Shown here: piece by piece, positions 15,582 through 63,780 of the stretch | Position numbering within the stretch: the stretch's first letter is position 1 | How the letters are laid out: each line of letters opens with the position of its first letter | NCBI RefSeq assembly: GCF_042242105.1 | Contig: NC_092013.1 | Span: forward strand, 12,083,618-12,147,617 | From: Pempheris klunzingeri | Lineage: Eukaryota > Chordata > Actinopteri > Acropomatiformes > Pempheridae | DNA length: 64,000 bases | Reading direction: 5' to 3' | Translations under genes and position numbers: made by a program | The notes under the pieces: model-generated | Databases searched by the model: none | What the model was told of the DNA's origin: nothing | What the model saw: only the letters and a program-made list of their open reading frames with translations

Positions 15582-16098
15582 GTAAGTATTTACTAATATA
15601 ATGAGAAAATCCACATTTTCTCACGTAACCCACTTCTAGGGATATGTGGCCATGCATATTTGGGTTTTAATTTCGAGCATCGAATCGACTCTTAGCTGTT
15701 CGCTAAATTTCAGAAAAGCGTACGATACATCTTGGACTTAAACTAGCATTTTGACAGCTATTACATTTTGACACCAATACACACTGAACAGTTTTGTAGG
15801 GGATTTTTTGGTGGAAGGTTGTTCAATTAAAAGCAGTTTACCTCTACCTGATTTGACAGAGGTCTCATGGCGAGAGTCCCACGTTAAAAAACTATGAATT
15901 GAAAGTCTAATCTTTTTTAATATATTGTATTTAACTTAATTCTAGCAGGCCAAAACCCATAGTCTCAATTGTAATATTGCAATGGCAAGGTTTTTCAGTG
16001 GCCTGAGTAATAGCCTACCTACCCAAACCTTCCCATTACAGGTGACAGCTTCTCCAACTTCTCTCGCTGAACAAAAGCTCCCTCATCTGTAATAGTTG

Positions 16099-17136
16099 AT
16101 GAAAGCTGATACCATCGCGGCCCTGAAAGACTTGGATGAAACCCAGGGAGATGAGGGTGTTGGCCCTGGGGGAACAAGGACCCTCAGGACAGGGCAGCTG
16201 TGTGGCAGTAATGATGACTGCACTAGTAGTGCTGCTCTGGGCCCTGGAGGATCCCCTAGCCCTATGGACAACACCCCTGACCACGACCAGGCCTCAAGCT
16301 TTGATGCTACATTCCATGAGATCCAAGAGCTCCGGGAAAACCAAAGACGACTTGAGGAGTGTTTTGAAAACCTAAAAGCCTGCCACAAACAAGAGTACAC
16401 AGTGATTATGGAGGCCCTACAAGAGGAACAATACAGGTAGCACTTGCTTACTGTAGCACTGAAAGGAGCCCGTCCTGTTTGTGATGTACTGTCGTTACTA
16501 TTTTGCAGATGTGAGCGTTTAGAGGAACAGCTCAGTGACATGACAGAGCTGCATCAGAATGAAATATTTAACTTGAGCCAGGAACTAGCCAGCATGGAGG
16601 AGATTACTTATCAGCCCTATGAAAAAGCAATGGATGTTCATGTATGCTTTACCAGTCTTTTTCACTGCAGACATTTTGACATATAGCAAGATTAAATAGC
16701 TTATTGAATATCTGCCAGAGAAAAAAAGTCTATAAATAAAATGAGTGGTGCTGTATATATCTAATTCCTCTGATAAGTCACCAACACAGATAATTTTGTC
16801 TCTAACCTGTAGGAGGCGCTTGAGGCTTGTCAAAAACGTCTCTTCAAGATGGAGCAGCAGCAGGTTGTACAGCTTGAAGGTTTGGAGAACACCACAGCAC
16901 GAACTCTACTTGGAAAACTAATCAATGTGCTCCTAGTTGTTATGGCAGTCATTCTAGTATTCGTGTCCACGGGGGCGAGCTGTCTCATCTCCTTGATGAA
17001 AACATGCAGCTGCATGTTTTTCACGCTGCTGTTTCTACTTCTCATCTCCCTCCTCTGGAGGCATTGGGATGCCATTTTAGAGTATCAGCATTACTTTTTC
17101 TGTAGTCAACATCCTGAAAAGGGAGGCCATCAATAA
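16099..17136 (+). CDS. Truncated tmcc1-like paralogue with intact frame (264 aa), or a slowly decaying copy
   Basis: Exons 16099-16436, 16509-16641 and 16813-17136 match tmcc1 coding exons 3-5 and join in frame. The protein keeps ELRENQ, the second coiled coil with CERLEEQL and MTELHQNEI, the VVQLEGLEN block, and both hydrophobic segments with WRHWDAI. It lacks the Ser-rich N-terminus and the first coiled coil. The 5' part of its first exon (16042-16098) has lost tmcc1 sequence and contains stops, so the first usable ATG is 16099, in weak Kozak context. The last donor is CAT|GTATGC, weaker than the tmcc1 equivalent. One codon (Lys) is lost from exon 2 without breaking the frame. The stop codon lies inside an AATAAA at 17132-17137. 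Introns are kept, so this is a DNA-level tandem duplicate, not a retrocopy. An unbroken frame despite many substitutions favours a gene under some constraint. Confidence 0.6.
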
Positions 17137-19057: not shown

Positions 19058-21242
19058 GACTGAGGATCAAATTTAAAAAGGGGGGGAAAAAAACAAGACA
19101 CAAAAGCAGCAGGTTACGTGAAGTCTAAAAACAGGCCTACGCTACACCTGCACGTCCAGCGTCTCCGCCTTTATGCGGTTGCTTCCGGTAAAGTGAGACC
19201 AGGTGCATCACATCCCGTCAGGTGCAGTTCATCAGGGTTTGTAAATTAAAGCCATCAGGGATCGACACATAGGGGGTCATCCACCTTCTTTAGACTTCTT
19301 TGACTTGAAACTCATTTCAATCTTTTGCAGTATTTCACAGAAAAATATGAATCGTGCAAGAGTACAAAATCCTACTTCCAGTGTTGGACTTTAAAAATGT
19401 TTTAAAACTTTTGCAAACTCTAAAACAATGATTTCAAAATAATCAGGTGTAAGGTGCACAAAACAAACCTCTTGGTGTCAGATGTCTCACTGTGCAGCTT
19501 TAGAGTGGCCAAAGTGTCATGTAGAAAACAGACAAAATTCAGTGAGAGCACATGAATACAGCCTGTAGGTGATTTGAAGGAGTAATGCACAAATCAATAT
19601 TTAATGTGATGTTCAATAAATATGGAATGTAACACTACTAACATTTGGGATGACTTTGAATTTTATTTATTTTGATAGATAAATAAGGATAAAAGAGGCA
19701 CGCTGGCATTTCATCATGACAACAGCTTGAATGGTTTGAACGGAAAACCAGTCCTGTATCACCAGTCCTGCCCAGTTTTTGCTGGGATATGAGACAAATA
19801 CAACAAACACAACAGTAGAATAACTCCATTCTGTCTCCATTTGTCACCAGGTAGCCTGCACCCTTTTAGATCTAAATATAAAGGACATGAACAATAGATT
19901 GTTGCAACCGATACTCACCTTAGATCAGCCGCATTGTGTCTCCACAGCAATAGAGAGTAGTAAAGAGAGAAAGAGCGGGACAGTGCACTGTGATGTGTTG
20001 CAATGTAATTATAGAAGATATAGAAAATACTTTATATACTGTATATGATAGGCAGATCAATTTTAATTTATTGACGTTCATATTATTGTACAGGCCTGCT
20101 GTTGACATTATTCAACAAATTATACTTATTTTTGATTAAATGATGCTTTGGCAACATTGTTGTTAAAACTTTCATGCTCATGGAAGCATTTGAATTGAAT
20201 TGAAGTGAAGCAACATAATCTGGAGCTGGAGAGTTTTAATGATATTGTGACCTGAGTGCAGCACTATTCTCTCTTCTAGTCACTGGCAGCAATCAGTACA
20301 TTTCGCTTTCTCTCCTGGTTTCAAAACTTGTCAGCATTATAAAGCCCTGCCTTTGAATCTCTTGCTGTTTAGATAGGTGTTGCCAACCAACTCAAACAAC
20401 AGAAATTTAGAGGCTCAGGAAGTATGTATTTTGATGTTTAAAACAGAAACTTGAGATCAAAATTAGTTATATGTGTAAACAACTGATACTTTTAATTTGA
20501 TGACGTGGCATTTTGTTGGCAAGTGGCTATGGGATAAGTGGTTACTAGGGGCAAACCACCCTCCGCCCCCACTCCGTCATTTATTACAGTCATGGAAAAG
20601 AACAGCTTATAAGGTAGAACTGTCAAACTCTGTAACAGGTGAATCGTTCAGTGGATCCTGGCCACACAGTGGTGCTGTAGATATCAACTGTCTATAAATA
20701 TGTGGCATCTGTATATCTTTGGGAGTACTAAATGCTAAGGCAAGAAAACACTTCATAAAAACACAATATAGAAATTTCCTTTTTTGCCCTCTCCAAAACA
20801 ATTATGTACTGTAAATATGTTAGTGTTGATATTTTGGTAAAACTATTGACCTTGTGCTCTCCGGTAAGTTCATTAAAGTAAAAGGGCATAATGCTGCATG
20901 GCATGTTGTCCCACCTGGTTATTCAGTTAGCCAGCTGGTCCAGGTGACGTGGACAATTATTATTAGTTCACCAGTTGAGTTAAAGAGTCAGTTAGAAACA
21001 TGGAGACACTGACTAGTTCAATGCAAACTAGGGCAAAAAAATCACAGACTGTGCAGTATAATTTTGGAAACATTAAGTTAAATGCAGTTAAATTCTGTTT
21101 CTGAAAAATGGGAATAACTGCATGTTTGCCAGAGTAGACCATAAACATGCTAAGTATGTGCGTGCAGATGTAAGCAGTTCATGATTAACAAACGCACTTT
21201 TCTGAACCAGTTAGCTGGCACTGTGGTAGATTGATCTAAATA
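19058..21242. other. h1m upstream region and spacer
   Basis: The first 150 bases upstream of the h1m ATG are CpG-containing (about 19130-19215) and probably hold its promoter; I saw no clear TATA box. The remaining 2 kb is AT-rich, with no exon, RNA gene or repeat I recognise. Confidence 0.4.
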
Positions 21243-21921
21243 CACTACTCACAAAAAGTTAGGGATATTCGACTTTCAGGTGAAATATATGGAAAATGTA
21301 AAAAGTGAATGCTACAGTGATATTATATCATGAAAGTAGGGCATTTAAGTAGAGGCATGCAATGGTAATTTTATTCATCTTAAACAATTTATTGAAAGAA
21401 AATGTAACAACAGTGGTGGGTATACCACAACAAAAAATTTTCAGTGTCTCAATAAATTGGGATGTGGCCAAAGGACGTCCACTCCTCTCCTTTCTGTGAC
21501 TCTTCCAGTCTCTGTATCACTGTTACAACCTCCTGATGACACTCCTCCGTCTGAGGACTTCCTGTTTGAAGCCTCGCAATGACGAGGTGCTGTTGATCAA
21601 TTGTTAGGTGTCGTCTTGGTCTCATGATGTCAGAATGTGAACAGCACGATGAGGAGGACTGTTTAAATACCAATTCTAACTGAAGCAGGAAATGTATTGA
21701 TCGATTCATGGATCAAACCTGTTGTGAATTTTGCTGTTAAGCTTCTTGTTAGAGAACAGCAGCTTGTGCAAAAAGTACTGAAACACTGAACAGTTGGACA
21801 TGTGCATTCAAAAGTTTAGAGAAGGTCACATTAAGTTCACCTGGAAAGGTTAGAATGCATTTTAGGTTCATCCTGAAATTTCACCTGAAAGCCGAATATC
21901 CCTAACTTTTTGTGAGTAGTG
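21243..21921 (-). mobile_element. Internally deleted Tc1/mariner-like element with about 44-base terminal inverted repeats
   Basis: The left end (cactactcacaaaaagttag...) and the right end (...ctaactttttgtgagtagtg) are inverted repeats of about 44 bases with one mismatch. Each is flanked by the TA dinucleotide expected of Tc1/mariner insertion. The 679-base body is too short for a transposase. On the minus strand near 21449-21625 a remnant reading MRPRRHLTIDQQHLVIARLQ resembles the N-terminal helix-turn-helix start of Tc1-type transposases, then breaks off. It is therefore a non-autonomous relic, mobilisable only in trans, if at all. Confidence 0.8.
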
Positions 21922-22109
21922 TATATTACATGCTCAGGCTTTAGTAGAAAATGTGTTCCTGTGGTCTGTTTGTTTGTGTGATTCACCCATGATGCTAGTT
22001 GTGGTTTTCCTGAGAGTAACTTCTGCTAAATGACACTGAAGTCCTTGTGGTCAGATACACAAGTTACGTCTTTAGAGGGTTCTAGTCAGTCTCAGTATTC
22101 AACTTCATC

Positions 22110-24334
22110 ATGTCTGGACGCCTGTGGTTTGTCATCCTCATGTGTAAGTTAAGCTGATAAATGTTTTTATTATTAATGCATGCTATTACAAAGCACTACA
22201 TGTTATACTACACCAAACTTATGTTTTTATCTTTTTTATGGTCTGTGATTTTATCTTATGTGTGTTCTTATTGGCCGAACATATTTTGATCTTGATCATG
22301 ACTCCCACCTCTGATTGACTGAACTACATACAGGGTGGCGTTTCAGTCTCTCTAAGTTTTCTTGAAAGTATTACTTAATTGTCATGACATGTGTTTACCA
22401 TGTTGACACACTGTATTTCCAACAGATTCCTTTTACAAAATTCAAGTACAAGGTCAGTGTCTGATCCGTTTTATGTCCAGCTGTGCCGTCATCACTGTAT
22501 GGGAAGTTTATTATAGACTGTAGTGTTATAAATTCTTCCATTTGTCATATAATTTTCTTATATTCCTTCATGTTATATCATGATTTGATCATTAGGAACA
22601 TTATTATATTGTTTCAGCTATTTTTCATTTGATACAACATGTGTTTACTTCTAAATTTTCAGCTCTTCTTCCACCTAAACTGATGGTGAATTCACATGTG
22701 ATCACAGAGGCAGACTCAGTCACTCTGAACTGTCTGGCTCCGTCACCTGTTTCTGTGTCTCAGTGTTATTTCTACACTGTAAGTGGAGGACAGGTCAGAG
22801 TCCTCTCTTGTCTGCAGACACTGACAGGAACTGAGCTGCTGAGAATGGCACATCAGACTTCACCTGCTGAGGTCAAAGTGATATGTTTTTACACTGTTAA
22901 GCTTGGAGAGACACAATCTCCATCTCCACACAGTGACCCATCCTCCATCAGCATTCAATGTAAGTACACACTACTGCTAAGGACTAATAGAAAGGTAGCT
23001 TTATACATTATGAGCACAAACAGCAAAGCGGTTCTTGACATTGAGTGTGAGTCTTCAGAGGAAGTATCAGAGGCTTTTTAGTGGGAATCGTCTGCCATTA
23101 TAAACTTATCATCAGAATTTGTTTTTTAAATACATTTTCAGTGATTTAATTCAACATATGCTAAATTTTCAGCTCTTCCACCTAAACTGATGGTGAATTC
23201 ACATGTGATCACAGAGGCAGACTCAGTCACTCTGAACTGTCAGACTCCGTCACCTGTTTCTGTGTCTCAGTGTTATTTCTACACTGTAAGTGGAGGACAG
23301 GTCAAAGTCCTCTCTTGTCTGCAGACACTGACAGGAACTGAGCTGCTGAGAATGGCACATCAGACTTCACCTGCTGAGGTCAAAGTGAAATGTTATTACA
23401 CTGTTAAGCTTGGAGAGATAAATTCTCCATCTCCACACAGTGACCCATCCTCCATCACCATACACAGTGAGTGACTGTTCCTCCCATCTGCTGATATTAT
23501 TAGCCATATGTCTTGATACAGTATGAGCACAAAATAGTAGTGTGGCGTGATATGTTATGTGTGACTTTGTTTTTAGAGGTTCAAACCCAAATCAAAGAGG
23601 GAGAGACTGATTTGACGTCCTCTGCACCCATTACAGTGCTGCCTGTGGGTGAAGGTGATACAGAGATGCTCTTTGTTGATTTTATTACTTAGATTAGATT
23701 GATAGAAATTGTTTGTATTACATACAAGTTTGCTGTTATATCAGAGTAAGACTTAGCACTTTGTATCTATTGATTGTTTTTTCTTTTATAAATCTTTCCT
23801 ACAGATCAGAAACCACAGATGAGTGTTCAGCATTTCAGCGGTGAACACATTCTTTTTACTTGCTCTCTGCCTCTATCCTCTAATCATGATATAAGATGTA
23901 ACCTGTACTTTGGAGAAGCAAGTAGACCAGTTCTAACAACAACCATCTGGAGGAAAAGGACCTCAAAAACCAATCAGAGTTTCTGCCAGTTTACAGTCAG
24001 AATCGATGATTTGCTGAGACATCTGCATTTTATTCAACAAAGTGATGCCAGCTGTGATTACAGTTTGAGGAGTGATCCCAACTCTTTGTCCCCTCGTAGT
24101 GATGGATACAGCTTGAGGGGTAAGTCAGAGAAGATATGAACACACATGCTACAATGACATGTAGAAAATGTGACACAACACCTTTGTTTGAAATGAATGG
24201 ATTTATCAAAGTGATTTAGGATAGGATAGGATAGCACTTTATTAATCCCTTGGGAGGCTTCCCTCAGGAAATTGAGGTTCCAGCAGCAGCACAGCACCAA
24301 CAGTACAGTAAAGAGGAAAAAAAAAAAAAAAAAT

Positions 24335-24383
<49 letters not shown>

Positions 24384-24411
24384 TATATACATATATATAT
24401 ATATATGTATA

Positions 24412-24464
<53 letters not shown>

Positions 24465-27400
24465 CAATAAACTAAATAATAATAATAATTAATATCTTAA
24501 TATATATACAAGGGTAGTGTTTTGACCAAGATGAAATTCACACACCTGTCTAGCACCTCCCCTCACCCCTCCCCCTCCCACCGAGGGCAGAGTTGTACAG
24601 ATTAATGGCTCAGAGTCTTTATCACTTAATAGGAATAAGAATAAGACCGCCTTTATTTAATGTATAAATTCAAACAAACATCACAAATTATGTCTCCACA
24701 TTTGAGTCAGTCTTTAACTGCATATCATTAGAAATATTTGAACATAACACTGAGATCACAATCAGAATCATGCTGATTTGTCAAGTAGAAGGAGCTGGTT
24801 TTAACGACAGTGACAATAATATCTTGTCATGATGTCTAAAAAAATGTCAACTTCATGGTGGTGCTAGTAGAAGTCAGGAGATCACCAAAATCAGTGGGCC
24901 CTGCATGGCTAAAAACGGACTACATGTTCACTGGTTTGTAGTTCTGTCAAAAGAAATAGCATGACTGTTTATTTGTACACACATTATACTGACAGGTACA
25001 AATCCTTTCCTTTTATTTCAGATATTACCGAGAAAGAATCAAGTGTGGTCTCCACAAAATCAGCATTTACAATGACCACAGGTAGGACCTGTCATGCAGC
25101 TAAACAGAAAGCTGGAACATCACATATCACTTCTATAAAATTATACTAGTGAATCACAAACTGAATGTTTTCTCTATTGCTGAGTGATGTGATGCTCACA
25201 AATACACTATCTCACACAGTCCCACACATGACACTGACAGATCCAAATCCATTCTCGCGTATGGCGCAGAGTATGCCGCCATCTATTATGACTACAGGCA
25301 AGTCATCCAATGCATTTTGATATAAGCCTACATCATCATCACAAATGACTTACTATATTTATTATTTTGGAATTTTTTTTTTTTATTCACCAGGTCTGAC
25401 TGTTACCAGGCCTCATGCCTCCACTCATGTAACTCCTGCAAAAACATCAACTGGTAATTATTGTTATATTGTCTTTAACTATTGAAAAATTAACCATCAA
25501 CATTTGATAGAAGAATCAATGCCTTGATGAATAATCCATATGTACAGAATCATATACGTCTCTGAGCAATATGACTATTTTGAATTGTATTTTTCCTCAT
25601 TTACCAGGTGTGACTGTGGGAAGACCAACAAACACTGATACTTTCTTCTCTACTTCCCCAATGCCACTGAAACCAGGATCAGGTGACACAACTACTCAGT
25701 TTCTCAAATATTCACATGGATGTCTTTTAAATTGTTAGTTGGGCATTTAATGCCTTTATTTGATAGAGATAGAGGAAAGATGACTGGAATTGAGGAAGCA
25801 AGAGATGCAAATAGATACTTTCATAAAACTTTGGGGAAAATATGTCATTTTAATATTTATTTCCTGTTTAATATTTTCACTGTCATAACTCCTATGAATC
25901 TGGCATCAGGAGACATTGTTACAGATGAGATTCTTGCGTGCGTAAAAAAATGCCATGATGCATTGCTGTGAATGTTTTTAATGTTTCTGACTATTTATTT
26001 AATACAGCTAGCTTTTCCCCAGTAACCCCACAACGCCCAACATCAGGTGAGCAAAAAGGATGTAATTACTTACACATACTGCTTGTGATAATATGTCTTA
26101 AACAACATGCAGTCAATTTGACATATTTGCAGCAAAATAATGTTAATTAACGTTAATGATTAATAAATGAATGCAACCATCTCATTTACAGTGGACACAC
26201 AGCATTACAGTAAGTATAGCTCTGCAATGACCTTTTATGGCATAATTACAGTCCATAGCATGTCCTAAACCTAAATTCAATGATTCATCATGTTCACAAC
26301 TTTATTTACATATTCAACAATTGCATAGCAATACATTGTCATTCATGTTTTATATCTGTTGTGGCATGCACTGGAAGGAATTCAGCAGGCACCACACACA
26401 GTCTTCTTACTTTTGTGTTTGAAGTGAAACTGATACTTTTGTGGTCTCCAAAACAGAAACATGGATATGGGTGTTGACAGTAGTGGCTGGTTTTGGAGTA
26501 ACTGTGGGTGTTCTCTTACTGGGACTGGCACTTCTCTGTAGCAAAAGAAGAACTGGTGAGATTATGTGTCCAGTAAAGCTTGAGTGTATTTTTCCTTCCT
26601 GTTGTTTTTGTAAAGAGTTCTTAAAGAGCTGAGGATTCTGCTGAGAGACCTTATGTCCCCTTATGGAACACATACAGGAACATAAATCTTACATACCTCC
26701 TACATAAGGAGAAGGTAGGGGTGGCAGAGGGAGCTGTGGCAAAACCGTGTTAGCATGTGCAAATCAGCTGAGTGATAATAACACGTGTCAGTTTGTTATG
26801 TCTGCTTTGTACACCTACGTGAACGTGGTTGGACATCTCTAATCACACAGTTCTGAATAGGCCAATAATTATGAAGCATATATTAAACTGCTGATGCCAA
26901 TCGGCCAATACAAGCACAACTTCAGTGTACTGAAACTTCAATGCTGTGCTTCTCTCTCTCTCTCTCTCTTCTTTTGCATTTTTCAGAGATAAATTCTCAT
27001 AAGAGGTAAGAAATCTTCTTTCAGCAAAAGCTGATTAGGTGTTTTCTATTACCACTTTTTCATACTGAAGTTGAGCTCATTCACTTCAAGCAACTGAGCT
27101 CTTCACCTTCCTCAATTAAACTTTCCTTAAAAAAGGAAAGTTTTTTGGGCTTAAAAGTAGTGGCCACATAAGTCAAGGAGGTCTTTGGGGAAAGAAATAA
27201 ATTCCCAGCGGATATTATGTTTTAGTCCTACAGTGCATTCTGCTTTCCTGATACATAAATAAATACAAAGACACACTCTTCACTAAAACTTTGTTTTGCT
27301 TTTGCTTTCATTTCTGTATAGGACAGAAACCAATACCACTGGTAATGTACATATTTAGTGGTCAGACAACATCTCTATATTATTCACACAAACAGAATAC

Positions 27401-28336
27401 AGTATGTGTTGCATTTATATGTTGGTCCTCTAGTGTACTGAATTATAATTTGCATTCTGTTGCAGATGACATTATGTACATGAGAAATCTTGACCATGGA
27501 GGACTGGTAATCAAATAACCCTTTTTCTGTCAAATCTAACATTCACATCAATTACGTCAAACATTTAAATAGCAATTCATGTGTAAAGTTATTCATGGAT
27601 TCCTCTCACTTCCTGTCTCCTCTTTTCCTGTTATCTTAAGTTACCTGCAGGTACTGAGGAAGCCTACAGTGTGATTACCTTAGGACCTGGCAACTGCCCT
27701 ACTGGTGAGCTGCTTTTCTCCTCTATAACAACTTGAACGTATAGTATAAGGCTATTGTACAGGATGGAGAACAGGTTTCATGCTGTATATTACATACTAC
27801 ACAGTAAATAACTCTCCCAATTGATTTGTCATATTAGTTTTTGATGTATTTTAAAAAGCGTATATTATTGTATGACAAATATGCTTTGGTTAATTTTTCT
27901 AAACTTGTATATCTATATAGTTAAATAAGCAAAACATTCAATAACATGGTTGCTGTCCCTTCTTTCACTCCATGAAAATGAACAAACACAACACAAGTGC
28001 AAGGGGAGTCCAATGACTGTTAGAAACCTACACATCTTCTATGAAGACAGTTCAACAAAATTCCAAAGTTAACTGAAACTGTTACCTTGTGGGTGTTGTT
28101 CTCTCTTATTCACAGGCTGTGAAAACCTGAACTGGCAAGTGCCTCAAAATGATGACGTAAGTGCAAAATGCGACACAGTATTCAATAATTTAGCTACATG
28201 GATTTATAGATGCTATAGATTTAAAAAGCTCTTTCTTTTGTAGTCTGATGTATACCATGTGTACTCCACCATCTCTGAGAAGCTGCCTCCATCAGCCCTG
28301 AAGGACATGGTGTACAGCGTTGTGCAGGAACATTGA
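22110..28336 (+). CDS. Ig-like receptor copy 1: three Ig-like domains, long Ser/Thr stalk, one TM, tyrosine-motif tail (583 aa)
   Basis: Nineteen exons join in phase: 22110-22143, 22426-22452, 22663-22959, 23173-23466, 23577-23654, 23805-24119, 25022-25081, 25220-25297, 25394-25453, 25608-25682, 26008-26046, 26192-26209, 26457-26555, 26987-27005, 27322-27341, 27466-27506, 27641-27704, 28116-28156, 28244-28336. Residues 1-20 are a signal peptide; 21-119 and 120-217 are near-identical four-Cys Ig-like domains (VTLNC, SQCYFYTV, LSCLQTLTG, CYYTVKLGE); 244-348 is a divergent third domain; 349-458 a Ser/Thr/Pro stalk; 459-491 contains the membrane helix; 492-583 the tail with AYSVI, VYSTI and VYSVV. 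The domain endings (CxYxxxxxxxSPxSD) recall Fc-receptor/LRC-type C2 domains. A ligand-binding leukocyte receptor is inferred, function unknown. The intron after 25297 has a GC donor. Confidence 0.75.
24219..24310. repeat. Teleost retroposon-like tail inside intron of Ig-like copy 1
   Basis: A short tandem run of aggat, then ttattaatcccttgggag and ctcaggaaattgaggttcc, matches a 3' tail common in teleost genomes that I recognise but cannot place in a named family. An A-run and a TA/CA microsatellite follow directly, as after many retroposon insertions. The equivalent intron of the other copies lacks it. Confidence 0.5.
24317..24460. repeat. Compound A / CA / TA / TG microsatellite
   Basis: An A-run (24317-24333) followed by alternating CA, TA, CA, TA, TG and TA blocks. 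It generates spurious open frames rich in Ile-Tyr and Thr-His on both strands. Confidence 0.9.
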
Positions 28337-29306
28337 AACATGCTGTATAGAGAAACAGTTGATGTACTGTATGTAATATTTGTGAGCTGGTGTTGACCTG
28401 CAAAAAGCCTTTGATAAAATTGTTTTTGGTCTATATTGATGACATGAAAACTGCCAGGACATGTGCTTTGTTCTTATATGCAGATAATTTTCTTCTGGGA
28501 GAAACAGGTATTAGTTGATCCGTATGTAAGTACATTACAAAACAAAAACAAATGTCAAACACAAATACTAACATGAAAGTAAAAAAGTAAAATTTAAGTC
28601 ATTTTAGGCATGTACATGAAGTAACGTTTGCAACTTGAATAATATATTATAAGTTACAAGTTAAAAAGGCGTATTACACTGTGCCAGGAGTTAAAGAAAA
28701 TATAATTCCAAGTTCAGTTAGTGACTCCATTAAGATCAAGGCATGCATGCAGCTAACAGGGGATAACACTGCCATGTGAACTGTTCGGCCACCAGGTGGC
28801 ACCATTCACCTAAGACTGAGATGGTACCTACTGTCTCAAATGGTGATAACCACACCACAGAGGACTTGGACTCCTCTTCCTCCTCATCCCCCTCAACCTG
28901 TTCAAAAAGATGCGGTCCCACATCACAGTCTGTTCGTGGGGTCACCTGTCTGTGCACAAATCATGCGTGTTGTAGTTTATCTCAAGATATCCTCCCAAAC
29001 ACACATATAAGCCGCACAGCAGCACAACTCTGAATATACTGTATGAAGTGAAATGCAGATTTCTTTGTAAGATGGTCGGGACCAGAATAGGAAATAATTG
29101 CGTGTGTGTGCTTGTGTTTGTAGTTACGCAAACCTACTATCTGTATCTGTGTATGTCACAAAAGTTATTAGAACTTGTTTAGTCTTGATCTTCTGCATTA
29201 GATTATTTTCTACTTCCATTTGTTCAGTGTGTCACAGTCCATGTAGTCAGACACACAAGAGTAGTCTTTAAAGGATTACTGGACATTCACATTATTCAGG
29301 TTCATC
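28337..29306. other. Spacer between Ig-like copies 1 and 2
   Basis: 3' flank of copy 1 and 5' flank of copy 2. One CTCF-core-like word, CCACCAGGTGGCA, is at 28789-28801. The open frame across 28776-29033 has no family features and no splice context. Nothing else recognised. Confidence 0.35.
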
Positions 29307-31755
29307 ATGGCTGGACACCTGCTGTTAGTCATCCTCATGTGTAAGTTGAACCTCTTGTCAGCTTCTTTCAATGTAAAATTAGGCAATTACACACTAATAA
29401 AGGTACAATTTCTGTCAGAGTCAGATTGATATGTCATGTCCATCATGTATTGGTGTTAGCACGTTATACTTTTACATCAAGCTGAGAGAAATAAAACAAC
29501 AACATTAAGAGTTTACTATCTACATCTGTTTCCCTCTAATCCTAACCCTACCTCATGTCAACTTGTTATTTATATCTCTAGCAGATTCCTTTTCTGAGAT
29601 GAAATCACAAGGTCAGTTCCTAAGTGTGATATTAGTTTTTATGGGCAGGTGTACTGTTGTATATCACAGTATGGTCAGTTTAGTATAGTCTGTTTGTGTT
29701 TGTGTATAGTTAGTTTGTTTTACACATAGCTTGGCTGTACTGTACTTTTTTTTAAAACTATACATCAAATCACAATTTGTTGTTAGGAATTTCATTGCCT
29801 TGATGTAACAAATGCATGTTTCCCTCTAAATCTTCAGGTCTTCTTCCACCTAAACTGACAAGATGACCACAGAGACAGATTCACTGTCAGATGCCATCAT
29901 CTGTTTCTGTGTCTTAGTGTTTTTTCCACATTATAAGAGGAAGAACTGCCAAGAGTTTCTCTTGTCTGCAGACACTGACAGGACCTGAGCTGCTGAAGAT
30001 TATAGATTAAAGCTCACCTGCTGAGTTTAGTGACATGTTTTAACCTTTATGCGTCTCAGTCTCCTGACAGTGACATGTCCCCCATCATCATTTGAAGTAA
30101 GTGAACACGGCTGCTATGGACTAATATTAGGATATCTTGCTACATTATGAGCACAAACACCAAAGTGGCTCTTAGCATGGAGGTTGACTCTTCAAAATAA
30201 GTGTTAGAAGCTTTAGAATGCAGCAGATTTAATCATTGCCAAAAAAACATGTAATATGTGCCTTGTCGCGGCATGCTCTACTATTATGCATTAATCTTTA
30301 GAATTATTTTAGATTATGCAATTTCAAAGTCAAAATCACTGCTCGAGTGATTGCACATTTACACTGTCAAATCCATCTTGTTTTACTGTAGTTATAGTGG
30401 AAACATAATTAACCATGATGCAGACTAAGTCAGCTCACTCACTTTGACCACAGGTAAGACATGTTATACATTTAAACAGAAATCCAGAATATTACCACAA
30501 ATCGCTCACTATTTTGTTGTTTTGTAAATTCTCCCACTCATCTAGCTGTGATCCTGTAATCATGTGTCTGAGTATTTTGACTACTGAAAGGTACTTTTCT
30601 TCATTCACCAGGTTGGCCTCTCAGTATGCCAAGCCTCATTGGTACTTCTATCTCTACTTTGCTAAAATCAGTAAAGCAATCTTCAGGTGATAATTTTTTC
30701 AACATTTCACACTGACTTCCATGTAAATATATATGCTACACTACTGTATATAATATCCACTCATGAAACACTAATAATGTTTATAAAACGTGATGATCTT
30801 GAATGTCTATCAAAGTGCAGACTGAAGTGATGATTAGTGATGTGGTGCTTGATTGGATAGTGTATAATGGATATACACTAATGTGTTGCTTAGTATTTGC
30901 ACACCTAGTACAAAGGAAAACAATATATAGTTTTAATGTTTAATGTATAGTTTACTGCCTTCAAGAAACACTCCCTGGTATCACTCTGGTGATGAAACAA
31001 CAAGTGCTGTTGACTAAAGATTGTTGTTATTTCATCAAAGTGCTAACATGCATTGGTGTGGATGTTTTGAAAACATTTATGGTTCTTTACTTAAAAGGTT
31101 TGAGCGCTAATACACCTGGCACTAAAGATAGTTCCTCCACTGTAACCCCGCTGAAAACAGCTTTGAGTAATTACAGTATGTGTGTCTTCCTGACCACTTG
31201 AATTCAGTGATACAATTAACTTTGCAACTATCTTTTACCCTAAATTAATCAGTAACAAATCAATACTTTGCTTTCTATTGTACATATTTGGTTAGCACAA
31301 GTATTGGTGGTTGAAATACTATACAGATGTACAGTACATGTCTTCCTGCTTTTTTATTAATGATGTAAGAAGCGAAAGTTACACTTATGGCTTCTGTTGT
31401 TTACAAGGAGGAATGTGGGTGCGGGAGCTTCTTTTAGTTGTGACAGCTTGCGGAGTAACTCATCTTTCTAGTTTCAGTTCTCTGGAGCCAAAGAAGAGTT
31501 GGTGAGAACAATGTCGATTTGCTTGTCTAATAAAGTCAGAATGGGTTTTTTATATGGGTGTTCACACATGCTGTTTGATTCTGAAGTGTAGCAGTTCATG
31601 ACAAAAATCTGAAACCCTTTTAAGAGTTAACAACTGCTCTCTGTCTTTTCCCAGCTTGACATATGCCATTTGTACTTCATCATCTCTGAGGAGCCAGTTG
31701 CGTCAGCACGGAAGGACATGGCGTACAGCACCGAGAGTGAAAGTGCTTTAAGCTG
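29307..31755 (+). pseudogene. Ig-like receptor copy 2, decayed
   Basis: The signal exon (29307-29340, MAGHLLLVILM) and the second small exon (29585-29611) are intact and match the other copies. The first Ig-like exon (from about 29838) meets a stop after PPKLTR and carries several internal deletions relative to copies 1, 3 and 4. The second and third Ig-like exons are not recognisable. Stalk-like pieces (about 30612-30686 and 31099-31177), a membrane-like exon (about 31410-31501) and a final exon (31655-31755) remain. In the final exon the first tail tyrosine has become Cys (CHLYF). Several independent lesions make this a clear pseudogene. It shows the cluster is old enough to lose members. 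Confidence 0.8.
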
Positions 31756-32412
31756 TACAGTTAATTTTACTATCTTCTGTCAAGTCAGGCACAAGTTGTG
31801 TGTATTTTAGCACTCCAAAGTTATTTTAAAACCCAAGTGTTGTTTTTCTAGCATCTTTTTCACTTATGTACAAGTTAAATGATGTTCACATTATTTACAT
31901 CATTATCCCAAAGTGCAGACATTTAAATGTTGTAAGGGTTCAAATGAACTTTATTATCATTTTTATTAGAAACCAAAGTTCTACACACACGAGGGTGATT
32001 CACACATGTGGATGTACACAAATACATATGACTCTCATACACAGAAAAAGATAACGACAAATCAAGAGTTAATGCATAATGGTGCAGTGAAAAGTGGAAA
32101 CCATCAAGGAGACAAAAATCAATCACAACTTTATGCAAGGAAATAATATTTGAAGGCAATTTAAAAATATCTTTTAGCTAACATGACACGTTACCAACTC
32201 TCTATCTAATTTGATCAAAGAACAAAACCACATATATGTGCGACTTTGAAAAGGCTGTCACGTGTTTCTGTGGCCTGCCTGTTAATGTGACCATACATGT
32301 GATGCTTGCTGTGGTTTTCCTGAGAGACAATTCTTCTACGTGACCCTTTAGTTCAGGAAACAAGCGTATCTTCTGCAGAGGTCTTTAGATAGCCTCAATA
32401 TTCACCCTCATC
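31756..32412. other. 5' flank of Ig-like copy 3, start of the tandem unit
   Basis: From about 31809 the sequence is nearly identical to DNA starting at 36572, the 5' flank of copy 4. It holds the putative promoter of copy 3, with no TATA box that I can point to with confidence. Open frames here are duplicated along with the unit and have no family features. Confidence 0.5.
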
Positions 32413-35400
32413 ATGGCTGGACGCCTGCTGTTTGTCGTTCTCATGAGTAAGTAAACCTTAAACAGCTTTTTTTAATTATTAAGGCAGGCTACAGTAGGAT
32501 ATCAGACTAATACAGATTTACGGTTCCAAATATTCCAAATATTAATATGTAATTTCTGCCATTTTGTGTCAGCATGTTACATCATGCCGCATTTAAGTTT
32601 TATCTTTTTTATGGTTGTTGATTACATGTTATGTTTGTTCTTACTGCCTGTGCTGTGTATTGTAAACTTAAAGTGGAACTGTTGTGCAAAGTTCAAAACT
32701 AATTTCATCATTGGGACAAATAAAATGTATGTTGATCTGGATACTGACTCTCACCTTTGATTGACAGAATTGCATACTGGGGGGAGTTTGGTGATTAGTC
32801 ATTTTTAAATGACTATTAGGTGTGTTTACCATGTTAACGCATTGTATTTCCAACAGATTCCTTTCACAAGATTCAAGCACAAGGTCAGTCTCTGATCTTT
32901 TGTGTCATTATCACTGTAGGAGAAGTTTATTATAATTTGTTATTAATTTGATTATTTTTCCACATAGTTTGGTTGCACAGTATAGAAATCTTTTCTTCCC
33001 CTGGATAAAACCACAATTAGGAATATTAATACATATTGATACAGTTACTCAGGATTTCATATAATGCGTTTTTGTTAAATTTTCAGCTCTTCTTCCACCT
33101 AAACTGATGGTGAATTCACGTGTGATCACAGAGGCAGACTCAGTCACTCTGAACTGTCAGACTCCGTCACCTGTTTCTGTGTCTCAGTGTTATTTCTACA
33201 CTGTAAGTAGAGGACAGGTCAAAGCCCTCTCTTGTCTGCAGACACTGACAGGAACTGAGCTGCTGAGAATGGCACATCGGACTTCACCTGCTGAGGTCAA
33301 AGTGAAATGTTATTACACTGTTAAGCTTGGAGAGATAAATTCTCCATCTCCACACAGTGACCCATCCTCCATCAGCATTCATTGTAAGTACACACTACTG
33401 CTAAGGACTAATAGAAAGGTAGCTTTATACATTATGAGCACAAACAGCAAAGCGGTTCTTGACATTGAGTGTGAGTCTTCAGAGGAAGTATCAGAATCGT
33501 CTGCCATTATAAACTTATCATCAGAATTTGTTTTTTAAATACATTTTCAGTGATTTAATTCAACATATGCTAAATTTTCAGCTCTTCCACCTAAACTGAT
33601 GGTGAATTCACATGTGATCACAGAGGCAGACTCAGTCACTCTGAACTGTCAGACTCCGTCACCTGTTTCTGTGTCTCAGTGTTATTTCTACACTGTAAGT
33701 GGAGGACAGGTCAGAGTCCTCTCTTGTCTGCAGACACTGACAGGAACTGAGCTGCTGAGAATGGCACATCAGACTTCACCTGCTGAGGTCAAAGTGATAT
33801 GTTTTTACACTGTAAAGCTTGGAGAGATAAATTCTCCATCTCCACACAGTGACCCATCCTCCATCACCATACACAGTGAGTGACTGTTCCTCCCATCTGC
33901 TGATATTATTAGCCATATGTCTTGATACAGTATGAGCACAAAATAGTAGTGTGGCGTGATATGTTATGTGTGACTTTGTTTTTAGAGGTTCAAACTCAAA
34001 ACAAAGAGGGAGAGACTGATTTGACGTCCTCTGCACCCATTACAGTGCTGCCTGTGGGTGAAGGTGATACAGAGATGCTCTTTGTTGATTTTATTACTTA
34101 GATTAGATTGATAGAAATTGTTTGCATTACATACAAGTTTGCTGTTGTATCAGAGTAAGACTTGATAGCAGATTAGCACTTTGTATCTATTGATTTTTTT
34201 TTCTTTTACAAATCTTTCCTACAGATCAGAAACCACAGATGAGTGTTCAGCATTTCAGTGGTGAACACGTTCTTTTTACTTGCTCTCTGCCTCTATCCTC
34301 TAATCATGATAGAAGTTGTAACCTGTACTTTGGAGAAGCAAGTAGACCAGTTCTAACAACAACCATCTGGAGGAAAAGGACCTCAAAAACCAATCAGAGT
34401 TTCTGCCAGTTTACAGTAAGAATCGATGATTTGCTGAGACATCTGCATTTTATTCAACAAAGTGATGCCAGCTGTGATTACAGTTTGAGGAGTGATCCCA
34501 ACTCTTTGTCCCCTCGTAGTGATGGATACAGCTTGAGGGGTAAGTCAGAGAAGATATGAACACACATGCTACAATAACTTTACTTCACTACAATGACAAC
34601 AAAATACGAATGCACAAACAATAAGGCTGTCCTATGCATAAATGTGCACTTCTAAGCTTTCTAATTTATTTCTTATATTTTTTGTACAAATTATCAGCCC
34701 AAGTCCATCTTCTCTTACTGTAGAAATTGTGAAAAGAGAATCAACCATGACCCAAACAAAGACATTTGGTACGACCACAGGTAGGACATTTTATAAATTA
34801 AAGTAGAAATCCAGCACATTATTACAAAGAACTTCAGCATAATTTCAGGCTCAAACTTAAGTTTAAAATTTGTCAGAGGGTTTTGTGTTTTTATTCACCA
34901 GGTGTGACTGTTAGCAGGTCTGGTGCTTCCACTTTGGTTCCTGGGAAACAAACATCAGGTAACAAAATAACAGACTGAGAGTATTAAGAGCAACATTAAA
35001 TGCAAACTATACATCATTCAGTGTGTTTTATATTTGAAATATATTGACTAGGTTTGACTGTTGGTGTTTCCACCTCTACGCCCCTAACATCAATGAAACC
35101 AGCATCAGGTGACATCATTTTTCATGAGGATTCACACTGACTCATTAGATAATGACGATATAAACACTTATTAACATGTCAAACATTTAACATGTTTTAC
35201 AAAGTGATTAAGCTGGATGTCAGTTAAAGCACATACCATGGTGATGGTTGCTGATTGGTTACTCTGACAGAGTGTGATGGTTATGCAGGTGCTCATGCAT
35301 GTGTGAACTTAGCCTTCCTGTTGTGCATTCAAAGCTCCCACAGTGGTAACAGTGTCTGCTCTCTGTCTTTCTAACAGCAAGACAAAACAAGGTTATTGTC

Positions 35401-36111
35401 ACGTGAACAAAACATGAAATGTTAAATCACAATTTATTTCCTTTTACGTGTCTTCCTGATTTTCTGTCCTTGTTGTGAGAAGCGTAACTGACACTTGTTT
35501 GTGTTTTCTGCTGTTTCAAAGCAGGAACGTGGATCTGGAAGTTTACCGCAACTGCCCCTGGTTGTGGAGTAATTGTTGGTGTCATCTTGCTGGTTTCAGC
35601 AATTCTCTGTAACAAAAGAAGAGCTGGTGAGAACTGTGTTGGTTTATTTTTCTAACAAAGTCTGAATCCATTTTTATGTAGATATTTACACATAATGTTG
35701 TCCAAGATACACACAATATACACACAATCAGAATCAGCTGAACTAAAGACTTGTATTTACATTCTGAGAAACCTGTGATTTGATATAGAGACTGAGAAAA
35801 ATAAAATGCCAAAGCTCATGGGAAACAATTATAGTACAACTATAATGAACAAATATTAACTGTTCGTCTTTCTCACCGGCAGGTTCTAAGGAAGTGAAAG
35901 GGCATAAGGTTCAAAATGATAATGTAAGTTTGACATGAGGCACAGCATTAAATATATCATTAACTATGTTTGTCAAATACATTAACAACTGGTCTCTTTC
36001 TTCTCCCAGCTTGACATATACCATTTGTACTCCACCATCTCTGAGGAGCCAGCTGCGTCAGCACGGAAGGACATGGTGTACAGCACCGTGAGTGCTGTAA
36101 ACTATACATAG
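32413..36111 (+). CDS. Ig-like receptor copy 3: three Ig-like domains, short stalk, TM, tyrosine-motif tail (486 aa)
   Basis: Twelve exons join in phase: 32413-32446, 32857-32883, 33087-33383, 33582-33875, 33986-34063, 34225-34539, 34724-34780, 34902-34958, 35052-35108, 35525-35626, 35883-35923, 36010-36111. Residues 1-20 signal peptide (MAGRLLFVVLM...); 21-119 and 120-217 four-Cys Ig-like domains; 218-243 linker; 244-348 third Ig-like domain; 349-405 Thr/Ser stalk in three 57-base exons; 406-439 membrane exon (GVIVGVILLVSAILC then NKRRA); 440-486 tail with LYSTI and VYSTV 13 residues apart. The -2 residues (His, Met) are off the strict ITIM consensus, and the spacing is just longer than a normal ITAM. 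The final exon contains an internal GTGAGT at 36091 that could be a donor. It is the left member of a recent tandem duplication with copy 4. Confidence 0.78.
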
Positions 36112-37167
36112 AGAGACAAAGACTGACTGGTGTTGGACTGCTGTAATGTAATTTTATTATATTCTGTCAAGTCAGGCACAAATTGTATGTATTTTATGTT
36201 ACCTAAAGTTTTGTCACCTTTGAATGTAACATTGGTGAGCTGGATTCCTCTTCCTGTATGCGGTGTCAAGTTAGCCACCTGGTGGAACAAGTTCTGCTAA
36301 AATGCTTAAAAGTGGCCAGAGTTTGAAAAGACAAAACATGTCATAACAGGCACAATAATGAAAATGGATGTAAAATAAAAATTGCCATGCTGTGGCATGA
36401 CAGAATCTAAACATGTGAAACATTTATATCTTAATGAATGCATAATTCTGGCACACATCTACACTTCACAGAGGGCAGTTGAGTCACATTTCTGTTTCTT
36501 TCTCTTCACTGACTGACAGCAGCAGCCTCTCAGACAAGTCGGCTACATCAGCCCTGGGAGATTCAGTGTACAGCACTCCAAAGTTATTTTAAAACCCAAG
36601 CGTTGTTTTTCTAGCATCTTTTTCACTTATGTACAAGTTAAATGATGTTCACATTATTTACATCATTATCCCAAAGTGCAGACATTTAAATGTTGTAAGG
36701 GTTCAAATGAACTTTATTATCATTTTTATTAGAAACCAAAGTTCTACACACACGAGGGTGATTCACACATGTACATGTACACAAATACATATGACTCTCA
36801 TACACAGAAAAAGATAACGACAAATCAAGAGTTAATGCATAATGGTGCAGTGAAAAGTGGAAACCATCAAGGAGACAAAAATCAATCACAATATATAATA
36901 ATATTTGAAGGCAATTTGAAAATATCTTTTAGCTAACATGACACGTTACCAACTCTCTATCTAATTTGATCAAAGAACAAAACCACATATATGTGCGACT
37001 TTGAAAAGCCTGTCACGTGTTTCTGTGGCCTGCCTGTTAATGTGACCATACATGTGATGCTTGCTGTGGTTTTCCTGAGAGACAATTCTTCTACGTGACC
37101 CTTTAGTTCAGGAAACAAACGTATCTTCTGCAGAGGTCTTTAGACAGCCTCAATATTCACCCTCATC
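36112..37167. other. Spacer between Ig-like copies 3 and 4
   Basis: Copy 3 3' flank, then from about 36572 the second tandem unit. At 36521-36583 a piece reading like a tail exon (after an AG, including a GTGTACAGC match to the VYS motif) is probably a remnant of an older tail exon at the duplication junction. Confidence 0.4.
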
Positions 37168-40100
37168 ATGGCTGGACGCCTGCTGTTTGTCGTTCTCATG
37201 AGTAAGTAAACCTTAAACAGCTTTTTTTAATTATTAAGGCAGGCTACAGTAGGATATCAGACTAATACAGATTTACGGTTCCAAATATTCCAAATATTAA
37301 TATGTAATTTCTGCCATTTTGTGTCAGCATGTTACATCATGCCGCATTTAAGTTTTATCTTTTTTATGGTTGTTGATTACATGTTATGTTTGTTCTTACT
37401 GCCTGTGCTGTGTATTGTAAACTTAAAGTGGAACTGTTGTGCAAAGTTCAAAACTAATTTCATCATTGGGACAAATAAAATGTATGTTGATCTGGATACT
37501 GACTCTCACCTCTGATTAACAGAATTGCATACTGGGGGGAGTTTGGTGATTAGTCATTTTTAAATGACTATTAGGTGTGTTTACCATGTTAACGCATTGT
37601 ATTTCCAACAGATTCCTTTCACAAGATTCAAGCACAAGGTCAGTCTCTGATCTTTTGTGTCATTATCACTGTAGGAGAAGTTTATTATAATTTGTTATTA
37701 ATTTGATTATTTTTCCACATAGTTTGGTTGCACAGTATAGAAATCTTTTCTTCCCCTGGATAAAACCACAATTAGGAATATTAATACATATTGATACAGT
37801 TACTCAGGATTTGATATAATGTGTTTGTGTTAAATTTTCAGCTCTTCTTCCACCTAAACTGATGATGAATTCACGTGTGATCACAGAGACAGACTCAGTC
37901 ACTCTGAACTGTCAGACTCCGTCACCTGTTTCTGTGTCTCAGTGTTATTTCTACACTGTAAGTGGAGGACAGGTCAAAGCCCGCTCTTGTCTGCAGACAC
38001 TGACAGGAACTGAGCTGCTGAGAATGGCACACCAGACTTCACCTGCTGAGGTCAAAGTGAAATGTTATTACACTGTTAAGCTTGGAGAGACACAATCTCC
38101 ATCTCCACACAGTGACCCATCCTCCATCAGCATTCATTGTAAGTACACACTACTGCTAAGGACTAATAGAAAGGTAGCTTTATACATTATGAGCACAAAC
38201 AGCAAAGCGGTTCTTGACATTGAGTGTGAGTCTTCAGAGGAAGTATCAGAATCGTCTGCCATTATAAACTTATCATCAGAATTTGTTTTTTAAATACATT
38301 TTCAGTGATTTAATTCAACATATGCTAAATTTTCAGCTCTTCTTCCACCTAAACTGATGATGAATTCACGTGTGATCACAGAGGCAGACTCAGTCACTCT
38401 GAACTGTCAGACTCCGTCACCTGTTTCTGTGTCTCAGTGTTATTTCTACACTGTAAGTGGAGGACAGGTCAGAGCCCTCTCTTGTCTGCAGACACTGACA
38501 GGAACTGAGCTGCTGAGAATGGCACATCAGACTTCACCTGCTGAGGTCAAAGTGAAATGTTATTACACTGTAAAGCTTGGAGAGATAAATCATCCATCTC
38601 CACACAGTGACCCATCCTCCATCAGCATACACAGTGAGTGACTGTTCCTCCCATCTGCTGATATTATTAGCCATATGTCTTGATACAGTATGAGCACAAA
38701 ATAGTAGTGTGGCATGATATGTTATGTGTGACTTTGTTTTTAGAGGTTCAAACTCAAAACAAAGAGGGAGAGACTGATTTGACGTCCTCTGCACCCATTA
38801 CAGTGCTGCCTGTGGGTGAAGGTGATACAGAGATGCTCTTTGTTGATTTTATTACTTAGATTAGATTGATAGAAATTGTTTGCATTACATACAAGTTTGC
38901 TGTTGTATCAGAGTAAGACTTGGTAGCAGATTAGCACTTTGTATCTATTGATTTTTTTTTCTTTTACAAATCTTTCCTACAGATCAGAAACCACAGATGA
39001 GTGTTCAGCATTTCAGCCGTGAACACGTTCTTTTTACTTGCTCTCTGCCTCTATCCTCTAATCATGATATAAGATGTAACCTGTACTTTGGAGAAGCAAG
39101 TAGACCAGTTCTAACAACAACCATCTGGAGGAAAAGGACCTCAAAAGCCAATCAGAGTTTCTGCCAGTTTACAGTCAGAATCGATGATTTGCTGAGACAT
39201 CTGCATTTTATTCAACAAAGTGATGCCAGCTGTGATTACAGTTTGAGGAGTGATCCCAACTCTTTGTCCCCTCGTAGTGATGGATACAGCTTGAGGGGTA
39301 AGTCAGAGAAGATATGAACACACATGCTACAATAACTTTACTTCACCACAATGACAACAAAATACAAATGCACAAACAATAAGGCTGTCCTATGCATAAA
39401 TGTGCACTTCTAAGCTTTCTAATTTATTTCTTATATTTTTTGTAGAAATTATCAGCCCAAGTCCATCTTCTCTTACTGTAGAAATTGTGAAAAGAGAATC
39501 AACCACGACCCAAACAAAGACATTTGGTCCGACCACAGGTAGGACATTTTATAAATTAAAGTAGAAATCCAGCACATTATTACAAAGAACTTCAGCATAA
39601 TTTCAGGCTCAAACTTAAGTTTAAAATTTGTCAGAGGGTTTTGTGTTTTTATTCACCAGGTGTGACTGTTAGCAGGTCTGGTGCTTCCACTTTGGTTCCT
39701 GGGAAACAAACATCAGGTAACAAAATGGTTATGCAGGTGCTCATGCATGTGTGAACTTAGCCTTCCTGTTGTGCATTCAAAGCTCCCACAGTGGTAACAG
39801 TGTCTGCTCTCTGTCTTTCTAACAGCAAGACAAAACAAGGTTATTTTCACGTGAACAAAACATGAAATGTTAAATCACAATTTATTCCCTTTTACGTGTC
39901 TTCCTGATTTTCTGTCATTGTTGTGAGAAGCGTAACTGACACTTGTTTGTGTTTTCTGCTGTTTCAAAGCAGAAACGTGGATCTGGAAGTTTACTGCAAC
40001 TGCCCCTGGTTGTGGAGTAATTGTTGGTGTCATCTTGCTGGTTTCAGCAATTCTCTGTAACAAAAGAAGAGCTGGTGAGAACTGTGTTGGTTTATTTTTC

Positions 40101-40559
40101 TAACAAAGTCTGAATCCATTTTTATGTAGATATTTACACATAATGTTGTCCAAGATACACACAATATACACACAATCAGAATCAGCTGGACTAAAGACTT
40201 GTATTTACATTCTGAGAAACCTGTGATTTGATATAGAGACTGAGAAAAATAAAATGCCAAAGCTCATGGGAAACAATTATAGTACAACTATAATGAACAA
40301 TTATTAACTGTTCGTCTTTCTCACCGGCAGGACCTAAGGAAGTGAAAGGGCATAAGGTTCAAAATGATAATGTAAGTTTGACATGAGGCACAGCATTAAA
40401 TATATCATTAACTATGTTTGTCAAATACATTAACAACTGGTCTCTTTCTTTTCCCAGCTTGACATATACCTTTTGTACTCCACCATCTCTGAGGAGCCAG
40501 CTGCGTCAGCATGGAAGGACATGGTGTACAGCACCGTGAGTGCTGTAAACTATACATAG
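37168..40559 (+). CDS. Ig-like receptor copy 4: three Ig-like domains, shortest stalk, TM, tyrosine-motif tail (468 aa)
   Basis: Eleven exons join in phase: 37168-37201, 37612-37638, 37842-38138, 38337-38633, 38744-38821, 38983-39297, 39482-39538, 39660-39716, 39973-40074, 40331-40371, 40458-40559. Residues 1-20 signal peptide; 21-119 and 120-218 four-Cys Ig-like domains; 245-349 third domain; 350-387 stalk; 388-421 membrane exon; 422-468 tail with LYSTI and VYSTV. A 310-base deletion has removed the third stalk exon present in copy 3, and the frame survives because stalk exons are symmetric. One base change upstream of the first stalk exon creates a second acceptor (AG at 39444-39445) that would add 12 residues in frame. 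The second Ig exon begins CTCTTCTTCC, one Leu codon longer than in copy 3. The role is inferred as for its sisters. Confidence 0.78.
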
Positions 40560-41139
40560 AGAGACAAAGACTGACTGGTGTTGGACTGCTGTAATGTAAT
40601 TTTACTATCTTCTGTCAAGTCAGGCACAAGGAGCCACTGATGAATGGGCAATGGGCCACTCAGTTGTCCTATACACACATTCTGACCTGGATTTTAAAAG
40701 CCATTTGCGCTTTTCAAGAAAATTTTGATGCAGCGTTGTTAACGTAGTTCACAGCTACTAAGGTAACTATTTTTATTCAATTTAACAGGTTTGCTTCTCA
40801 AACTGAAGTAAACCACCCGTAAAGTAAACCATGCGTGTGGTAGACCACCGCTGTGCTGGGATAAAAATAACTCAAGCAAATTACATGAGAAGAAAATACT
40901 GTATGAGAAGAGATGGTACAGAGTTGATATCTTAACAGTTGGTTTATTTTGTTTCAACTAAAAGATCAATTAAGATACTAAGATACAGTGTAATGCTGCC
41001 CAGGATATACACCATCATACACACAGTCATGAGTAGCATGATCATACACAATAAGTTTGACTTATTTTTATTCAGAGAAACATTATTTAAACACCAACTT
41101 CATGAAAAACTATAATGTGTGTTTCTTTCTCACCCACAG

Positions 41140-41530
41140 GTTTCGACAGCGTGAAAGACGGAGGTCCCAAATTAGCAATGTAAGTCTAACGTGAAAGACG
41201 ATATTTAATATTTTTGGCATGTATATGTTAATAAACACTGAAGCTGGTTTATTTCTTTTTCCAGTCTGACATATACCATATTTGTGCGACCATCTCAGAG
41301 GAGTGAGCTGCATCAGCCCTGAAGGGTGTGATGTAAACTGTTTTATACTGTTAGAGGAAGAGAAAGCAGCCTGAAGAACTGTTGATACTGTTGTTATGAT
41401 GTCTAGACTGATGTTAGACTACTGTAATGTTTTTAAACAGCCAGATACAAACTTTAAGTTGCAATTTAGAGATAAAGCACAAAATGGGTTTCAAACTGTA
41501 TTTTGATTTTTTTTAAATAAAGATTTGCTT
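41140..41530 (+). pseudogene. Orphan cytoplasmic-tail exons of the Ig-like family, with poly(A) signal
   Basis: Two splice-flanked exons remain: 41140-41179 (40 bases; its intact relatives are 41) and one from 41265 that reads SDIYHICATISEE before a TGA at 41304-41306. They match the last two exons of copies 1, 3 and 4. The upstream exon has lost a base relative to its relatives. AATAAA at 41517-41522 follows. This is either the tail of a fifth, deleted copy or the original 3' end of copy 4 stranded by the tandem duplication. Confidence 0.65.

Positions 41531-42529: not shown

Positions 42530-63780
<21,251 letters not shown>

Follow-up and report, generated by a model that had tools for sequence, protein, structure and literature searches.

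What kind of receptor is encoded between positions 22110 and 41345 of the 64,000-nucleotide stretch C2:12083618-12147617 of the fish Pempheris klunzingeri, and how did its gene copies come to join near-identical heads to different tails? The receptor cluster is real; its copies, A to E, lie in tandem on the + strand of this stretch (the window; the whole genome comprises 646 Mb in 439 contigs). The answer we favour, and hold to be reasonably probable, is that the genes form a small tandem family whose products are type I receptors of the cell surface, of immunoglobulin-superfamily type, with an ectodomain shared by conversion, diverged tails and tuning or inhibitory signalling.

Exons were chosen by eye from the sequence to suit splice signals and frame and were then joined by script, so the fit of the models is partly by construction. 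Copy A (22110..28336, 19 exons, with a long stalk and the longest tail), copy C (32413..36111, 12 exons) and copy D (37168..40559, 11 exons) give spliced frames of 583, 486 and 468 residues with no internal stops. These are exactly the phase-consistent frames that an earlier note on this DNA had proposed; of two possible hinge donors it is the second that yields them, whereas use of the other gives 581, 484 and 466 residues. The three copies share one layout: a leader of two exons, D1, D2, a hinge, D3, stalk exons, a single membrane exon and the exons of the tail. As chosen by eye, each of the nine D1, D2 and D3 exons is phase 1 at both ends. The introns are GT-AG in 38 of 39 cases and GC-AG in the other, where a GC donor (gcaagt) closes the copy A stalk exon 25220-25297. 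Chance open frames were considered as an explanation and rejected: the + strand of 21901-41500 holds nine stop-free stretches of at least 285 nucleotides, against a mean of 2.6 and a maximum of 7 in 200 first-order resamples. The longest, at 483 nucleotides, is itself within chance (resample maximum 555). Copy B (29307..31771; blastn, tblastn and sequence) is dead. It keeps leader exons (by eye), a D1 with stops and gaps, a stalk remnant and the last tail exon; D2 and D3 were not found by blastn, tblastn or sequence inspection. Copy E (41140..41345; blastn/tblastn, exon starts by eye) survives as two tail exons with an in-frame TGA after ISEE and neither YxxI/V tyrosine retained. The earlier reading of the architecture and of tandem turnover, with one dead copy and one tail-exon survivor, is upheld by these models and copies.

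The relationship between the copies changes abruptly along the gene. A 1.5-kb block of copy A (22652..24157) carries all three modules, D1 (22663..22959), D2 (23173..23466) and D3 (23805..24119), together with the hinge exon (23577..23654). Introns included, its segments match C and D at 95.6-100% identity, with gaps left out. Its counterparts, placed by offset, lie at ~33076-34577 in C (D1 33087..33383, D2 33582..33875, D3 34225..34539) and ~37831-39335 in D (D1 37842..38138, D2 38337..38633, D3 38983..39297). A column-by-column alignment of A, C and D shows few substitutions inside the block and an abrupt drop in identity at both edges. In the D1-D2 intron A and C/D agree at all 198 aligned bases (100%), and A has one 15-nucleotide insertion. 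Outside the block, identity of A to C/D falls to 64-65% in the SP2 intron, 70% in the SP1 intron and 53-72% in the intron after D3. The exons there are likewise diverged: 60-63% identity in the first stalk exon, 75% in the membrane exon and 61-73% in the last two tail exons, with 82% and 89% in the two short leader exons. Near-identity with sharp edges inside the block and divergence outside it indicate that A was either recipient or donor of all three modules as one block. On this sequence evidence, gene conversion or an unequal exchange has moved the block, and A's stalk (six exons, 25022..26209), helix (membrane exon 26457..26555) and tail (cytoplasmic exons 26987..28336) stayed old. Copying of the block between genes leaves near-identical heads on diverged tails, and the cluster is a clear case of a single head so distributed. 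A long TA/CA microsatellite (24320-24460, by eye) occupies the intron directly after the copy A block and might mark the exchange edge.

C and D have a simpler relationship. The segment with copy C (31809..36181) is repeated with copy D (36572-40629) at 98.3-98.5% identity (blastn), and on that identity the two are a recent tandem duplication. Copy D is without ~300 bases found at ~34969-35276 of C, the region that holds C's third stalk exon.

A second level of exchange is seen within the head. By blastn, the likeness between a gene's own D1 and D2 exons stops a few bases beyond the exon ends. The six D1/D2 exons carry 12 informative sites, and all four gametes occur in 36 of the 66 site pairs, which needs exchange or repeated mutation; the exons are mosaic, with variants shared as if swapped. 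This sharing of D1/D2 variants and the sharp-edged head block common to A and C/D are new observations. In tests picked after the data were seen, and with gapped columns excluded, A, C and D vary at 27/591 positions in D1+D2 against 1/308 in the two adjacent introns (Fisher p=1.5e-4), or against 5/458 when the third intron is added (p=9e-4). D3 plus hinge does not differ from the introns (p=0.19), and D1+D2 against D3 plus hinge gives p=0.08. The changes mostly alter amino acids (13 nonsynonymous, N, and no synonymous, S, between D1 of A and D1 of C), but across the block no pair gives a significant test of N against S (20:4, 22:3 and 20:3; p=0.47, 0.16 and 0.23). We do not claim positive selection, given these N and S counts and an exon-over-intron excess that is confounded by exon swapping.

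The leader (22110..22452 in A; 22110-22143 and 22426-22452) is split into exons of 34 and 27 nucleotides in A, C and D. As the signal peptide claimed earlier, it is weak in hydrophobicity (best 19-residue mean 1.29-1.41, on a hydropathy scale and not from a signal-peptide predictor). The copy A membrane helix peaks at a hydropathy of 2.52. No charged residue lies in the 19-residue membrane core of A, C or D, which makes coupling to an adaptor unlikely; a lysine sits at the outer edge of the helix in C and D. The tail motifs are EAYSVI, HVYSTI and MVYSVV in A, HLYSTI and MVYSTV in C, and LLYSTI and MVYSTV in D; the paired YxxI/YxxV motifs described before hold for C and D, with EAYSVI as a third in A. 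The last two motifs are separated by 13 residues, just beyond the 6-12 residues usual in an immunoreceptor tyrosine-based activation motif. Position -2 of the first shared tail tyrosine is His in A and C and Leu in D (36022-36024 of C vs 40470-40472 of D). The consensus of the immunoreceptor tyrosine-based inhibitory motif (ITIM) is quoted as S/I/V/LxYxxI/V/L (PMC4810170). Among the seven YxxI/V sites of the three copies, one matches it (LLYSTI of D) and the other six miss at -2, so that of the recent duplicates only D fits the consensus at this site. In catfish, LITR tails engage SHP-1 and SHP-2 but can inhibit without these as well (PMC4810170). By analogy, and taken with the tail motifs and the uncharged helix, an SH2-dependent inhibitory or tuning function is the most likely reading.

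The mechanism we propose follows this architecture. The N-terminal D1 and D2 would most likely bind ligand, held away from the membrane by the Ser/Thr-rich stalk, which is probably O-glycosylated. SH2 proteins would dock on phosphorylated tail tyrosines, the most likely outcome being inhibition or tuning. Gene conversion, or an equivalent exchange, has spread the single ectodomain block over genes with diverged leaders, stalks, helices and tails, and small D1/D2 exon exchanges then shuffle amino-acid variants of the head. With a shared head and different tails, similar ligand recognition could be wired to different tails, as in paired receptors. We infer an Ig fold, ligand binding, the direction of signalling and expression in immune cells from this arrangement.

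To which family the modules belong is harder to say. Each carries four cysteines, and the layout noted earlier, with a first spacing of 10-11 residues, recurs in all of them; the later gaps differ, being 10/14/24 in D1 and D2 and 11/28/22 in D3. The modules had also been said to lack the usual Ig Trp: D1 and D2 have none, but D3 has one, away from the second Cys. Neither feature is without precedent, as the D2 domains of LILRB1 and LILRB2 have four cysteines (gaps 11/9/29) and the KIR/LILR domains inspected by eye have no C-strand Trp. We therefore rejected the missing Trp and the four cysteines as the sole mark of a new family. The second and third cysteines of LILR D2 are paired, and those of the present modules may likewise pair with each other. 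A bolder proposal, which we put forward tentatively and would not yet back, is that the modules form a separate Ig-like subclass in which the place of the core Trp is taken by a strand-C Cys that pairs with an adjacent strand. The conversion-shared head, diversified by D1/D2 swaps, would then serve a paired-receptor system outside the known FcR, LRC, NITR and CD300 sets.

Could these instead be ordinary members of the teleost FcR-like/LITR or LRC superfamily that evolve fast and would show their kinship in an alignment with other fish sequences? FcR-like genes have a two-exon leader, phase-1 Ig exons, YxxL/I/V motifs on separate tail exons and clusters with exon recombination, with signal-peptide exons of 30/21 nucleotides, a rule that is valid for part of the family (PMC2413239). 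The cluster resembles FCRL, Xenopus XFL and zebrafish FcRL5L in its two-exon leader, phase-1 Ig exons, separate tail-motif exons and clustering, and this match, YxxI/V tails included, favours such an origin. It differs in a mini-exon of 27 rather than 21 nucleotides, in a Cys at the place of the C-strand Trp (by eye) and in having no significant sequence match. With the LRC receptors (KIR, LILR, CHIR, OSCAR and LAIR) the modules share the absent C-strand Trp (by eye, in the KIR/LILR domains inspected), an S..SD stretch that follows the final Cys (also by eye) and the four-Cys precedent of LILRB1/B2 D2. The Cys gaps differ from 11/9/29, and D3 has no profile match.

Profiles built from FcgRIIa (two domains) and from KIR/LILR (eight domains) were compared with 3000 shuffles. 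The FcgRIIa profile gave 4.4-4.5 bits for the tested D1/D2, equalled by 9-24 shuffles, and for D3 589-662 shuffles did as well. The LRC profile gave 4.9 bits for D1 of D (13-14 shuffles as good) and 1.5 bits for D2 of C (77-86); for D3 of C 724-861 shuffles were as good. D1 of A scored 0.3 and 1.8 bits with the two profiles (raw scores with no shuffle comparison). The weak D1/D2 scores lend this origin something, as does a D3 model whose top neighbours include CHIR-AB1, OSCAR, KIR and LIR-1. The same figures also count against it: 1.5-4.9 bits and 9-86 shuffles as good for the two tested D1/D2 sequences, the 0.3 and 1.8 bits of D1 of A, and a D3 that shuffles equalled 589-861 times. The preference of the earlier note for C2 domains of FcR/LRC type is weakly borne out by sub-threshold Ig_2 matches of D1/D2, by profiles in which the tested D1/D2 beat most but not all shuffles and by the D3 model neighbours, but not by the D3 profiles. 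On balance we regard membership of these superfamilies as somewhat unlikely.

Like catfish IpLITR, the cluster is teleost and joins an Ig ectodomain to a multi-tyrosine tail, which in LITR can recruit SHP-1/SHP-2 (PMC4810170); unlike LITR, compared here by description and not by alignment, it departs from the ITIM consensus at six of its seven tail sites. NITR, NILT and SITR/CD300-like receptors are also of teleost immune type, NITR and NILT with tyrosine tails too. NILT is described with V-type domains and NITR with variable domains (PMC3022915, PMC2442602), and CD300-like receptors carry a WCR motif (PMC3031540) that is absent from the cluster modules. A literature search that reached few subscription papers and compared no fish protein database found no described family with the layout or locus of the cluster, and so did not contradict the 'undescribed-looking' of the earlier note. 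Other spiny-rayed fishes may have unnamed predicted proteins of similar type.

In the fold itself our favoured reading of immunoglobulin-superfamily receptors meets resistance. Pfam Ig matches fall below cut-off (Ig_2 at best 23 bits vs 27, V-set 13.8 vs 26), the predicted structures are weak (predicted local distance difference test scores of 69-70) and the D3 model also resembles unrelated sandwiches; all three weigh against it. With no Ig profile above its curated cut-off, we describe the modules as Ig-like only. Foldseek against the PDB returned no match at E<=0.001 for the D3 or the D2-exon model, the top rows being platypus CTLA-4 for D3 (E 0.015) and a match at E 0.75 for the D2 exon. 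A BFVD fold search with D3 gave no match at E<=0.001, a PDB sequence-profile search gave weak unrelated matches only, and NCBIfam gave two weak unrelated matches for D2 and none for D3. A different small beta-sandwich, for example of cytokine-receptor or FN3-like type, is nevertheless improbable. Ig_2 is the recurrent weak Pfam match for D1/D2, each module has its own phase-1 exon and the later Cys spacing misfits the cytokine-receptor pattern; an Ig fold is likely though unproven.

Decay of the whole cluster, with every copy a non-expressed relic kept open through recent conversion and duplication, is very improbable. In its favour, two of five copies are dead, the C/D duplication is recent and the leader, helix and last two tail exons show no significant purifying selection (ratio of nonsynonymous to synonymous rates 0.73 for A vs C, p=0.34, stalk and A's extra tail exons left out); against it, A and C differ by ~0.39 synonymous changes per site (68.8 sites) in leader, helix and last tail exons with frames and splice sites intact in both.

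Sequence searches of the whole genome of this fish gave no convincing match outside this cluster. A 109-residue frame with D2 of C matches seven places at E<=0.001 and the last tail exon of A three places at E<=10, all inside the window. D3 gives six matches at E<=10, three in the window and three elsewhere at E 2-7. The one outside match inspected (L016) has frames nothing like the receptor family, and the three are taken as chance. The tail-exon search missed the B and E tail exons, which tblastn found at ~50% identity; it is insensitive to short diverged exons and may overlook distant relatives. No relatives were found, as one would expect of a gene from a fish, in viral contigs (109-residue frame with D2 of C; D3), prokaryote contigs (D1/D2 alignment) or phage records.

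The upstream neighbours are a Tmemb_cc2 gene of the TMCC family, a second, partial copy of it (16096-17136, + strand, two Pfam-positive stretches) and a gene for a linker histone. On the minus strand downstream, one VWA_N match exceeds its cut-off and VWA matches nearby do not, a picture that agrees with an alpha2delta calcium-channel subunit. The exact names tmcc1, h1m and cacna2d3 come from the earlier note. An inverted repeat directly upstream of copy A (21240-21924; 47-nucleotide arms, 97.9%, ~590 bases between) is perhaps a small DNA transposon. A stop-broken Tc1/Sleeping Beauty-type transposase piece (43827-44498), only the first part of which is covered by a Pfam match, lies ~2.5 kb past the last receptor remnant.

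The architecture of the cluster is of a known kind, its modules are unassigned and an immune receptor role is probable; we take it as probably an unassigned, immune-regulatory family of teleost Ig-type receptors. If expressed in leukocytes, it would add such a family to the teleost set. It also offers a compact natural case of the same ectodomain copied to different signalling tails, with tract edges readable within a few bases. Because those edges can be read, the origin of paired receptors by conversion is directly testable at a single locus.
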